Source of the DNA: Nitrososphaeria archaeon
GTDB taxonomy: Archaea; Thermoproteota; Nitrososphaeria; JACIWG01
DNA: 39,190 nucleotides
Direction: 5' to 3'
Assembly: GCA_029776065.1 (NCBI GenBank)
Contig: JARVJP010000010.1
Span: 1-39,190, forward strand
Positions 13,733-17,653 of the stretch are shown piece after piece (the stretch's first letter is position 1; each line of letters opens with the position of its first letter). The translations under genes and the position numbers were made by a program. The notes beneath the pieces were generated by a model. The model saw only the letters and a program-made list of their open reading frames with translations, searched no databases and was not told the DNA's origin.

Positions 13733-14092
13733 ATGTCAAAGCCTTCCCTTAAAGGGCTAAGGTATGGTGAATATGGTCTCATATTGATATTAGCAATCTT
13801 AGGATTCTCAGGTATTCTTTACTATGGTAATATAATACCATTCTACATAGAAATTTACTTAGGTTTATTACTAACCACCTTCGGTGCTTATACAATAGCT
13901 TTTGTATTATATTATAGAAAAAGAGCAACTAAAGAAGAAAGAAACTATATGTTCTTATGGGGATATGTGTCCACTGCCTTAGGAATCTCACTGCTTGCTT
14001 ACATGTACACGTTTAACCTTCTATTTAATACTAGTCTCGCAGTATTTATCGGTGCTATTATAGCACTCTTAAGTGCAAAATATGTTAGGTAA
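13733..14092 (+). CDS. Small four-helix membrane protein, unknown function
   Basis: 119 residues with four hydrophobic stretches (about 15-32, 37-60, 75-93 and 95-114) joined by short loops; the central loop YYRKRATKEERNY is strongly basic and probably cytoplasmic. No motif is recognised. The TATA box 24-31 bases before the ATG indicates a leaderless message. The gene is divergent from the flavoprotein gene, with about 108 bp between them. It could be a small multimeric membrane component, but nothing in the sequence identifies a partner. Confidence 0.72.
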   Translation: MSKPSLKGLRYGEYGLILILAILGFSGILYYGNIIPFYIEIYLGLLLTTFGAYTIAFVLYYRKRATKEERNYMFLWGYVSTALGISLLAYMYTFNLLFNTSLAVFIGAIIALLSAKYVR

Positions 14093-14161: not shown

Positions 14162-14500
14162 TCAAACTTTTAATACTCTGATTTTGAGTACACCGTTTTT
14201 GAAGGAGGATGTCACTTTTTTAGGATCTATTTTATGAGGTAGTTTTATAACCTTTCTGAAGTACTTAGATTCCATCCTTTTTTGAGCAAAACCCCATCTC
14301 TCAAACCTTATCACCTTAGAGCATTCCGCCATAATTAGGAGTGCGTCCTCAGAAAACCTAACCTCTATACTTTCTCCCCTAACATATGGAAGGTCGACGT
14401 ATACTTCGAAAGCACTATGAGTTTCCCTAAGCTCGACCAAGGGCTCTAAACATCCCTCAACATCTTCCCATAATGAATCAAAATCTTCTGGAAAACCCAT
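14162..14500 (-). CDS. Hsp20/alpha-crystallin family protein
   Basis: Small heat-shock protein that holds unfolding proteins in a soluble state. The alpha-crystallin domain runs from PLVELRETHSAFEVYVDLPY to the end; FRKVIKLPHKIDPKKVTSSF and KNGVLKIRVLKV give the conserved GVL strand, with an IxV-like terminal motif. At about 112 residues it is short, with a minimal N-terminal arm. The start at 14500 is chosen because GGTGAT lies seven bases before that ATG; upstream GTG and ATG codons at 14512 and 14509 overlap the stop of the preceding gene. It is co-transcribed with the PAC2-family gene, joining two protein-quality-control functions. Confidence 0.85.
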   Translation of the reverse strand: MGFPEDFDSLWEDVEGCLEPLVELRETHSAFEVYVDLPYVRGESIEVRFSEDALLIMAECSKVIRFERWGFAQKRMESKYFRKVIKLPHKIDPKKVTSSFKNGVLKIRVLKV

Positions 14501-14508
14501 CTTATTCA

Positions 14509-15261
14509 TCACCTATACATTAGTGGGAGTTCCCCCTCCACATTCCTGTAGGTGCTGGGCGCAACCCTTTCTGTCTGCTTAACAAGATCCCTTGCTTTTA
14601 AGCGTATCTCTTCAGCGTTTTCAAGCAAAGGTTTTACGTCGATGCTTACAGAAAGAATTGTACTCAAAGAAGTCAGAAGCTCTGCAGCAGCACCAGGGTC
14701 AGGATATTTTAAGAAGGATTGTGCGATTAAAGCTATAGCGGGTAGCCCTGCCTTCAAACATTCCTTCAAAAAAAGTGCATATGTTCCTGAAATAAAACCT
14801 TCTTGTAGTACTTCAATTTTATGCTTTGAAAGTAAGTCAACATGCTCTTTTTTCGAGACAACACCGTATACTGCTGGTTTCTCTATTTCAAACCTATTCT
14901 CCACTGGGATTCCTGTTAAAGCGATGAGCATGCTAGCATTAACTGAGTTTAACCATTCAACGACCTTCTTTGTAAGTGAATTCAATAGTATTAAAGGTAA
15001 GGCTATCTCAGAAGTTAAGACGATGTAATTTTTATTACCATATATTCTTATTGGGTTCAAAAGTTCACCGTTGTGGACAACCATTATTGGAGGTATTAAA
15101 GAAGTTTCTATGTAAGCGATTTCCTCTAACCCCCAACTTTCAATTAAGTGCATGGATGCTATTGCCCCAGCTAGACCGACATCAGGAAAACCTTCGATGG
15201 CAACAGGATTTTCAAACTTTATATCCTTCTTCATAACGATCTGTAAAGGTTCTTCGGACAT
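14509..15261 (-). CDS. Proteasome assembly chaperone family protein (PAC2-like)
   Basis: Archaeal relative of proteasome assembly chaperone 2 (PF09754). 250 residues; the N-terminal NPVAIEGFPDVGLAGAIASM, the central IPPIMVVHNGELLNPIRIYG and the KYPDPGAAAELLTSLSTIL segment are typical of the family. The C-terminal 40 residues are charged, likely helical. The start at 15261 (MSEEPLQIV) is chosen because a TATA-like TTTTATAC ends just before the ATG at 15291, so transcription probably starts near 15268. It lies directly upstream of Hsp20, with GGTGA for the latter overlapping its stop codon, so the two form an operon. Confidence 0.88.
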   Translation of the reverse strand: MSEEPLQIVMKKDIKFENPVAIEGFPDVGLAGAIASMHLIESWGLEEIAYIETSLIPPIMVVHNGELLNPIRIYGNKNYIVLTSEIALPLILLNSLTKKVVEWLNSVNASMLIALTGIPVENRFEIEKPAVYGVVSKKEHVDLLSKHKIEVLQEGFISGTYALFLKECLKAGLPAIALIAQSFLKYPDPGAAAELLTSLSTILSVSIDVKPLLENAEEIRLKARDLVKQTERVAPSTYRNVEGELPLMYR

Positions 15262-15399
15262 GCCAGCCAATTGATAGAATAAAAAGAACATGTATAAAAT
15301 GTTTTTTTACATTATCAACAATCTATATATTATGGTTCTAAACTTGTTTGAATACTATGTTTATAAGCACCTTATTTATGATTTTTGGTAAGATAAAAG

Positions 15400-15912
15400 A
15401 TGAGTGACATAGTTGAAAAAGTAAAAGAAGAGAGAACACTACTTGAAAAGATCACATCCTACATCCCAGGATACCACGGTTACAAAGAAAAGGAACTTAG
15501 AAGAGAATCAGATAAAATGATTAGAGAAAGTGTCGTTAGAATGTTAAAAGAAGCTAAGACCCCTTTAAACGAAGCTGTTAGAGAAGTCTCTGATTCAGGA
15601 AATGTGAGCTCCTTCAAATATGCAAACCGCGCGTTAGCAGTGTTAGATAGAGTAACCAGCAAGATAGAACATGCAGATTATGGGTACTCAGGCTTCTTTG
15701 ACGCTGTAAAGGTTAAAGAAGATAAGCTTGATAAGCTAATCGAATTCGATCTAAGCTTGTTAGATGCCGCAAAGACGATTAAGGACTCTTCGTATAAGGT
15801 GAGTAGCCAAGCCGATATGAGCAAATCATTTGATGAATTTAGGAAAAAACTTCTAGAGCTAGAAAGCACACTTTATAACAGGGAAAGTATTATTTTCGAG
15901 GTAAGTAAGTGA
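15400..15912 (+). CDS. Coiled-coil protein partnered with SPFH protein
   Basis: 170-residue, almost wholly helical, charged protein with no membrane segment; long heptad-like stretches run about residues 28-60 and 110-165. I know of no catalytic motif. A TATA-like sequence (TTATTTAT, about 15371-15378) sits at leaderless spacing before the ATG. The stop codon (TGA, 15910-15912) overlaps the ATG of the SPFH/zinc-ribbon gene by one base, so the two proteins are translated together and probably interact. Similar small helical proteins accompany SPFH genes in other prokaryotes, but that is general knowledge rather than a motif match. Confidence 0.75.
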   Translation: MSDIVEKVKEERTLLEKITSYIPGYHGYKEKELRRESDKMIRESVVRMLKEAKTPLNEAVREVSDSGNVSSFKYANRALAVLDRVTSKIEHADYGYSGFFDAVKVKEDKLDKLIEFDLSLLDAAKTIKDSSYKVSSQADMSKSFDEFRKKLLELESTLYNRESIIFEVSK

Positions 15913-16868
15913 TGCCAGATATAATTGAGTGGACGACACAAGACGAAGACGACATTGTTTATAGATACCCAAAAAACGTAATCGGCTGGGGTAGTCAACT
16001 AGTCGTAAGAGAATTTCAAGTAGCAGTATTCTTCAGAGATGGGAAGGCGTATGACGTCTTCCAAGCGGGAAGGCATACGATAACAACACAGAACCTCCCA
16101 CTATTAACGGGTATTCTAAACAAGATAACGGGCTTCGATAAATCACCTTTCACTGCAGATGTAATCTTCGTGTCCACAAAACAGTTCAAGGGCCTTTTTG
16201 GCGCCAGTGGCCAAACGAACGACCTTGCTCCATTAAAGTTCTTTGGCGCCTACTGGTTCAAAGTCTCTGACGCTAAGATATTTGTCATGGAAGTTGTTGG
16301 AGGGCAAAGTGTCTTCGAAACTCCTCAAGTCAACAGCTTCTTAAGAGGTTACATGAATGAACGCCTAATATCACAGCTTTCAAAATACGACATCGCCACA
16401 GTGTTTACCAAATTAGAAGAAGTCTCCTTTAAAGTTAAATCCTCTATCCTTGACGAATTCTCCCGAATAGGTATCGAGCTAACCGATCTAAAGTTTGAAG
16501 GAATTGACACAACACCTGAATATAGGGAGCGACTGTTCTGGCTTAAACAGACTGGTACCCCGACAACCGTTCTCCAAATGGATACAACGAAATCTGTGGC
16601 AGAATCACTTTCTCAATCACCTGGAGCAGCACTTGGCGCAGGTATGGTCATAATCCCACCACTAATGCAACCCCAACCACAAGCACAACCTCAACCAGCA
16701 GCACCCGCTATACAGACTCCAACACAGCAACCTGCAGCAACTCCAACAGCAACAGCAATCACTGCGCCAACAGGTAAGATAAACTTCTGTTATAACTGTG
16801 GTACGGACTTAAGGAACCTTCCAACAACACCTAAATTCTGCCCAAACTGCGGCACTAAATTGACTTGA
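15912..16868 (+). CDS. SPFH (band 7-like) domain protein with C-terminal zinc ribbon
   Basis: Scaffold-type protein of the 'virion core protein/YdjI' SPFH group. Residues 15-215 form the SPFH domain (VIGWGSQLVVREFQVAVFFR, GRHTITTQNLPLLTGIL, LKFEGIDTTPEYRERLFWLK). A Pro/Gln/Thr-rich linker (about 248-287) leads to a zinc ribbon, CYNCG...CPNCG. There is no N-terminal membrane helix, so membrane attachment, if any, is indirect. The ATG at 15912 overlaps the previous stop codon, and GAGGT about nine bases before it acts as Shine-Dalgarno; a GTG at 15909 is possible. It is coupled to the coiled-coil gene. Role unknown; stress or membrane-surface organisation is the usual guess. Confidence 0.88.
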   Translation: MPDIIEWTTQDEDDIVYRYPKNVIGWGSQLVVREFQVAVFFRDGKAYDVFQAGRHTITTQNLPLLTGILNKITGFDKSPFTADVIFVSTKQFKGLFGASGQTNDLAPLKFFGAYWFKVSDAKIFVMEVVGGQSVFETPQVNSFLRGYMNERLISQLSKYDIATVFTKLEEVSFKVKSSILDEFSRIGIELTDLKFEGIDTTPEYRERLFWLKQTGTPTTVLQMDTTKSVAESLSQSPGAALGAGMVIIPPLMQPQPQAQPQPAAPAIQTPTQQPAATPTATAITAPTGKINFCYNCGTDLRNLPTTPKFCPNCGTKLT

Positions 16869-17224: not shown

Positions 17225-17653
17225 ATGCCCTTGTTAAAGACAATAGTTGTTGACTGGCATGGAAAGCTACGTTTCTCAGGTAAAAACGAGAAAGGGTTGT
17301 CTGTAAATTTTGATGTCCCAGTAGAAAAGGGTGGGGATGGAACTGCTATGACACCTATGGAGACTCTATTGGCATGTTTAGGTGCATGCACAGGGATCGA
17401 TATCGTATTGATTATGAAGAAGAAAAGACAAAACTTGCATGGTCTAACAATTGAGGTGACAGGAAATAGGAGGGACGAGGACCCTGCGATCTATACAGAG
17501 ATTGGGATTAAATACATCGTAAGAGGTAAGTCCTTAAGCAAGGAAGTAGTTGAACGTTCTATTCAACTTTCTGAAGAAAAGTACTGTTCAGTTTCAGGTA
17601 TGCTAAGGAATAGTGCGAAGATAACTACGTCTTATGAAATTGTTGAACTGTAG
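17225..17653 (+). CDS. OsmC/Ohr-family peroxidase
   Basis: Thiol peroxidase for organic hydroperoxides. 142 residues; the two redox cysteines are in ETLLACLGACTGIDIVLI and in SEEKYCSVSGMLRNSA. The beta-rich N-terminus DWHGKLRFSGKNEKGL is typical. The TATA box 21-30 bases upstream, and the lack of a Shine-Dalgarno, point to a leaderless mRNA. It is convergent with the aldehyde oxidoreductase gene, whose stop lies 16 bases away on the other strand. Confidence 0.92.
   Translation: MPLLKTIVVDWHGKLRFSGKNEKGLSVNFDVPVEKGGDGTAMTPMETLLACLGACTGIDIVLIMKKKRQNLHGLTIEVTGNRRDEDPAIYTEIGIKYIVRGKSLSKEVVERSIQLSEEKYCSVSGMLRNSAKITTSYEIVEL

Follow-up and report, generated by a model that had tools for sequence, protein, structure and literature searches.

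Comparison with described SPFH operons

The pspA-ydjGHI operon of B. subtilis provides a functional lead for the archaeal gene pair considered here. YdjI is described as a soluble SPFH protein that binds PspA and is required for recruitment of PspA to the membrane, and the localization of both PspA and YdjI is reported to depend on the membrane proteins YdjG and YdjH (PMC8581546). An account of the operon's content gives pspA, a band-7 protein with a C-terminal zinc ribbon (there written YdjL), YdjG with zinc ribbons, a YpeB-related domain and a transmembrane (TM) segment, and the TPM protein YdjH (PMC11237479).

The window, by which we mean the whole 39,190-nt stretch of Nitrososphaeria archaeon DNA that was analyzed, contains on its + strand a gene for a helical-bundle protein (15400-15912; 170 aa; called from its open reading frame, a structure model and NCBIfam) followed by a gene for a soluble SPFH (Band_7_1) protein with a C-terminal zinc ribbon (15912-16868; 318 aa; called from its open reading frame and Pfam). 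Like pspA-ydjGHI, the archaeal set includes an SPFH protein of the soluble Band_7_1 kind (in B. subtilis the Band_7_1 profile also matches, and the protein is said to end in a zinc ribbon), a nearby zinc-ribbon protein, with a TM segment in some relatives, membrane partners, and a helical-protein gene upstream of the SPFH gene. Unlike in pspA-ydjGHI, the archaeal helical protein is not detectably PspA, a small protein with three to four TM segments is found where B. subtilis has YdjH, many archaeal loci encode two proteins of a zinc-ribbon family (ZnR), and one lineage has a link to HtpX. No TPM (YdjH-like) match was found among the archaeal proteins scanned.

The archaeal pair also resembles the stomatin/flotillin-NfeD operons (SPFH1/2) in having an SPFH domain encoded within a short, conserved operon; unlike the SPFH1/2 proteins, the window SPFH protein lacks a TM segment and is soluble like SPFH8/9 of the same account, a likeness that falls short of a subfamily placement (PMC2636767). 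The N-terminal hydrophobic stretch typical of SPFH1/SPFH2 (stomatin/flotillin) is absent from its hydropathy profile, and a Pfam scan of eight window proteins, the pair and six of its neighbors, gave no NfeD match.

Gene overlap and upstream sequence

The TGA of the helical gene (15910-15912) and the ATG of the SPFH gene (15912-15914) have one A in common, forming a TGATG on the + strand (15910-15914) that suggests translational coupling. These coordinates bear out the stop/start overlap claimed in the original prediction; the open reading frame tool places the SPFH start at GTG 15909, and ATG 15912 gives the 318-aa product. Rfam and tRNA scans of the whole window gave no matches, and a PHROGs scan gave weak matches and nothing stronger.

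Two TATA-like boxes on the + strand, TTTATAAG (15360-15367) and TTATTTAT (15372-15379), begin 40 and 28 nt before the helical ATG, respectively, and are putative promoters. At the usual archaeal TATA spacing, the TTTATAAG box would give a short leader and the TTATTTAT box no leader. For comparison, 3% of ATGs in the window have a TTTATA or TTATAA box at a similar distance before them (20/651 and 19/664). A leaderless promoter had been proposed upstream of the pair: the boxes are present, and a leaderless transcript is possible.

Conservation of the pair across archaea

A survey of genomes was used to check whether the two genes occur apart in most relatives, and they do not. Among 41 genomes (the window's and 40 relatives), searched with the window protein alone for the helical family and with Pfam's Band_7_1 for SPFH proteins, 14 contain a full Band_7_1 gene, and in 14/14 the helical gene immediately precedes it on the same strand; G020 has a helical relative and no SPFH gene. 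Across 300 genomes of the phylum, the helical family was found in 153 and Band_7_1 in 141 (E<=1e-10), and 141/141 of the latter were also helical-positive. Coordinates were tabulated for 149 of the 153 helical genomes, which paired 139 of the 141 SPFH genomes (the other two, G125 and G203, are still helical-positive). The two genes lie within 3.2 kb of one another in 136 of these 139 pairs: the SPFH gene is directly downstream in 121, downstream at 0.3-3 kb in 7, upstream within 3 kb in 3 and on the opposite strand within 3.2 kb in 5, with the remaining 3 on separate contigs. Twelve helical genomes lacked an SPFH gene at E<=1e-10, and the three that were fetched (G133, G195, G318) each carry an SPFH frame close by that is weaker or fragmentary. 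In a second phylum, placed as euryarchaeal from the record titles of L088 and L091, the two families share one set of 57 genomes out of 115 and adjoin in 57/57, as judged by eye. The profiles recover their own rows by construction (A1 contains G000 and G039, of the 300; A4 contains the sources of L088 and L091, G329 and G330, of the 115). The pair is missing from about half of the surveyed genomes (147/300 and 58/115).

Twelve named loci, including those of Thermofilaceae, Brockarchaeota, Hermodarchaeota, Methanomicrobia, Thermococci and Theionarchaea, extend this pattern: the SPFH gene adjoins the helical gene or lies within ~1.1 kb of it in 11; the remaining locus, L092, is cut off by the end of its contig just past the helical gene. 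Among 71 sequence-distinct same-strand junctions, 19 overlap, 13 of them by exactly one base as in the window, and the gap is 0-20 nt in 32, 21-100 nt in 11 and >100 nt in 8, with the SPFH gene upstream in 1; because a script chose the start codon nearest the stop, these gaps are biased toward short values. Two more pairs, beyond the 71 junctions, are on opposite strands. With 19 overlapping junctions and 32 gaps of 0-20 nt among the 71, the coupling seen in the window is not a local accident. Taken with the overlap in the window, retention of the pair across genomes strongly supports the coupled helical/SPFH-zinc-ribbon pair of the original prediction. We found no description of this archaeal pair in searches of one open-access library.

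The SPFH protein

By its profile match, the SPFH protein is a member of Band_7_1 (PF13421; E 4.6e-33, 115.1 bits against a Pfam cut-off of 24), with the domain spanning residues 16-206 (15957-16529, + strand). Its model (mean pLDDT 70.7) resembles the SPFH domains of stomatin, prohibitin and HflK/C in a structure search. The domain is followed by a 39-residue linker rich in Pro, Gln, Ala and Thr (residues 252-290, including 9 Pro and 8 Gln; 16665-16781, + strand), over most of which pLDDT falls below 50, and by a single four-cysteine zinc ribbon of CxxC...CxxC form at the protein's end (Cys 293/296/310/313; 16788-16850, + strand). The highest 19-residue hydropathy mean is 1.16, consistent with the lack of a membrane helix. 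The first description of this protein, with no membrane helix and a ribbon behind a Pro/Gln linker, holds for the window, but its ribbon does not carry over to several relatives, whose SPFH proteins have no CxxC (e.g., L096, L097, L099, L104, L107, L161 and L162). The best reading, by analogy, is that the window SPFH protein would work like YdjI.

The helical protein

The helical protein is modeled as a bundle (mean pLDDT 81.6) with an N-terminal helix and helices at residues 31-66, 69-90, 107-136 and 140-169. This agrees with the all-helical character implied by its earlier label as a coiled coil, but on the model a helical bundle fits better. The residues P23, G24, Y28, R35, D38, R42, L49, G95, L110, D117 and R161 are invariant in the first 14 helical sequences, and the PG is missing from one of 23 wider members (L105). 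In the model these residues fall partly in two loops and at the start of a long helix, and they might form something like a docking face. An amphipathic N-terminal helix gained no support: the moment was at or above 95% of shuffles in 1/22 members.

The only named relative of the helical family is the Leptospira NCBIfam family LIMLP_15305 (NF047596). The homology spans nearly the whole archaeal protein (E 1.1e-14); unlike LIMLP_15305 members, however, it scores 54.7 bits, far under the curated cut-off of 210, and LIMLP_15305 equivalog status was rejected. Among nine archaeal genomes, NF047596 exceeded its cut-off in 0/9 and gave a weaker match in 9/9, with 0/14 in control genomes; the profile is weak and may miss members, as Sulfolobus acidocaldarius had no match though it carries a Band_7_1 gene. 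LIMLP_15305 is listed next to a non-coding RNA in PMC7567364. None of 685 Foldseek matches to the helical model was significant at E<=0.001, and the best VIA matches (Z 9.9 and below) were a plant Rx coiled-coil domain, a designed repeat, IncA, V-ATPase, HIP1R and talin, which is within the level expected from a common helical-bundle arrangement. The window Pfam scan also returned a Com_YlbF match (E 0.024).

Additional partners of the pair

The original prediction treated the pair as isolated, which proved incomplete: further partners exist, and one of them is inside the window. A 119-aa small membrane protein (13733-14092, + strand) is homologous to a gene of the SPFH operons of Thermofilaceae and Brockarchaeota. 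A profile built from four small membrane proteins of the operons, without the window's own, gave it 37.2 bits, compared with 10.9 for the best of 5000 shuffles. It has three hydrophobic segments over threshold (three to four in relatives) and lies 1.3 kb upstream of the pair on the same strand, separated from it by minus-strand HSP20 and PAC2 genes that overlap by 4 nt (14162-15291). The small membrane protein is patchy, occurring in 6/14 SPFH genomes, and two of the seven matches of its profile, A5, are the profile's own rows (G000, G026). A likeness of one small membrane protein to LiaF-TM (E 0.0035, below cut-off) was too weak and was set aside.

The zinc-ribbon family ZnR (profile A3) is a second candidate partner. 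In Thermofilaceae (L081) and Brockarchaeota (L084) the gene order is helical, SPFH, small membrane protein, ZnR, ZnR, while five of six loci fetched from the second phylum read ZnR, ZnR, helical, SPFH and the sixth, L159, has the pair without ZnR. Strong A3 matches (E<=1e-30) occur in 13/14 SPFH genomes versus 2/27 other relatives; four of the profile's 12 rows come from these relatives (G007, G017 with two rows, G039), and the matches in those three genomes are therefore by construction. Among 51 profiled helical loci (50 distinct, since L111 = L160), an SPFH gene was found in 49, ZnR in 29, the small membrane protein in 13 and HtpX in 1, counts that differ from frequencies because the loci were partly picked for odd gene order.

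The window's genome carries its ZnR gene on a separate contig (L121), where it stands back to back with a gene for an M48/HtpX-type protease (PF01435, E 7e-34); the ZnR product has no TM segment over threshold, whereas TM segments are seen in some relatives' ZnR proteins. The back-to-back arrangement occurs in G000 (the window's genome), G001, G002 (where the ZnR match is fragmentary), G004 and G026; in G020 the helical gene takes the place of ZnR beside the HtpX-type gene. These links are confined to 6/41 genomes. The linked gene is a second HtpX-type M48 paralogue (L121:6713-7741, L122:6367-7392, L123:5140-6165, L124:1832-2914; L015:2083-3180), and the other HtpX copies of these genomes sit elsewhere.

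Other genes adjoin the pair in particular lineages. An OsmC-like gene is next downstream on the same strand in the window (17225-17653; PF02566) and, by likeness only, also follows the pair in G003 and G004 (L002:2635-3066; L003:43-474), the other two pair-bearing genomes of the window's family. In four genomes of another family (L006-L009), a thioredoxin-like gene with a WCGPC motif is just past the SPFH gene on the other strand. A different multi-TM gene of 138-140 aa overlaps the end of the divergent, zinc-ribbon-free SPFH genes of L161, L162 and L099 (L161:6274-6696, L162:4918-5340, L099:4128-4544). In two genomes the pair is followed by a TPR-like protein, which weakly matches the MIT domain (E 0.0041, below cut-off), as well as by a larger zinc-ribbon protein (L104:5622-8088; L107:1723-4129).

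Bacterial plasmids have a related arrangement, in which a Band_7_1 gene is followed by a gene for a protein of the same ZnR family. The ZnR gene comes directly after Band_7_1 on Vibrio, Paracoccus and Comamonas plasmids (E 4e-31, 5e-28 and 2.3e-26); among six plasmid loci examined, from 20 plasmid records with a match, ZnR was strong in these three and weak in three (E 2e-5 to 0.0015). Unlike the archaeal loci, all six lack the helical gene, and a search of plasmids with a helical relative (L081) gave no match. These observations suggest an SPFH and zinc-ribbon core common to bacteria and archaea, with the helical partner exchanged. On the Paracoccus plasmid, a gene annotated as a 'toxic anion resistance protein' lies two genes upstream of the SPFH-ZnR genes (L169:2683-3858) and is perhaps another bacterial partner.

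Alternative explanations

If the helical protein were a highly diverged PspA/ESCRT-III member, the locus would be an ordinary Psp (YdjFGHI-like) system with an unrecognized PspA. The helical gene does occupy the position of pspA upstream of the SPFH gene, its product is modeled as all-helical with an N-terminal helix, and a weakly PspA-like protein is described in other archaeal ESCRT loci (PMC10936438). However, neither PspA_IM30 nor Snf7 appears among the Pfam matches of 23 helical members at E<=0.01, hhalign of the helical family against E. coli PspA gave a probability of 0.5% (a weak test with one PspA sequence), and no chain named PspA or Vipp1 is among the 39 PDB sequences listed by the helical profile search. 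The model is also a compact bundle with helices of 22-36 residues, rather than a single long hairpin, as judged by eye. PspA_IM30 exceeded its Pfam cut-off in 0/41 genomes, the window's included, and 0/115 genomes of the second phylum, compared with 9/14 named control genomes; this search covered 156 genomes (41 + 115). Below cut-off there were two fragments in other genomes of the 41 and 13 matches in the 115 (mostly within frames of some 1190 aa), and these seem to belong to long coiled-coil proteins. A PspA/ESCRT-III identity thus found no support in Pfam, the PDB-sequence profile search, hhalign, Foldseek or VIA, though absence of PspA and ESCRT-III among the VIA matches listed carries no weight, and we consider it unlikely. 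With no PspA over cut-off in the genomes searched, the locus is not to be filed as a Psp system, and the helical protein, judging from its sequence matches, should be filed neither with PspA/ESCRT-III nor with LIMLP_15305 equivalogs.

Alternatively, the pair may serve HtpX or some other membrane protease as scaffold and regulator, in the way HflK/C serves FtsH, with the helical protein delivering or gating substrates. The HtpX paralogue beside ZnR or the helical gene is consistent with such an adaptor, and several SPFH subfamilies are described as linked to FtsH (PMC2636767). Yet HtpX turned up in one of the 51 profiled loci and was not beside the pair in the others, and the linkage is to ZnR or to a lone helical gene, not to the SPFH gene; we regard this role as somewhat less doubtful than a hidden PspA, with roughly one chance in five left to it. 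Membership in an archaeal ESCRT/adaptin-type protein-sorting system seems improbable. Meth_adaptin ESCRT loci do hold an SPFH protein with a coiled coil and, like the archaeal SPFH protein here, a zinc ribbon; unlike the latter, theirs is described among ESCRT/adaptin-like genes (PMC10936438), none of which was found beside the archaeal pair among the genes scanned. Vps4, ESCRT-III and adaptin-like proteins had no match in the eight window proteins scanned with Pfam, and the archaeal pair operons differ in gene content from Meth_adaptin loci, their other genes having been scanned in part. The patchy presence of the pair among genomes could point to an anti-phage or mobile-element function, which is the least probable of these explanations and hardly credible: PADLOC gave nothing more than a weak match to the SPFH protein (E 0.035), viral_contigs gave six pattern matches and no relative, and the pair is retained across phyla with its helical member not found on plasmids. 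Defense or viral origin was rejected on the PADLOC and viral_contigs outcomes.

A candidate membrane-surveillance module

We give about an even chance, by analogy with YdjI, to the pair being the core of a PspA-independent archaeal membrane-surveillance and repair module built on a YdjI-type SPFH scaffold. That the proteins form a working complex is very probable. Complex formation, membrane recruitment, a role in stress and the action of the helical protein are all inferred from context.

SPFH proteins oligomerize. In the proposed mechanism, the soluble SPFH protein, of the YdjI kind, would assemble into an oligomeric scaffold at the membrane's inner face, where the small protein with three to four TM segments and zinc-ribbon proteins, some ending in TM segments, would anchor it. 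The SPFH protein's own zinc ribbon, where present, may bind membrane partners or a client from its flexible linker. The helical protein, putatively co-produced by coupled translation, would use its conserved PGxxGY...RRxxD and GYxG surface to dock on the scaffold and could then act as a regulated partner or effector, filling the place that PspA has in B. subtilis, or serve a protease. A dedicated HtpX-type protease may be linked to the module as a quality-control arm in the lineage of the window.

More broadly, and more tentatively, the helical family, with members in Thermoproteota, euryarchaeal and Asgard lineages and a distant relative in Leptospira, might be a standing partner of soluble SPFH scaffolds; together with the small membrane anchor, zinc-ribbon proteins and, in one lineage, HtpX, it would do the job of PspA without PspA or an ESCRT-III fold, a proposal that we hold to be possible but rather doubtful. 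How archaea without PspA sense and mend membrane damage is, in our judgment, poorly described. A pair retained in Thermoproteota, a euryarchaeal phylum and Hermodarchaeota, and whose SPFH part has a tested bacterial counterpart, offers a concrete candidate for this function.
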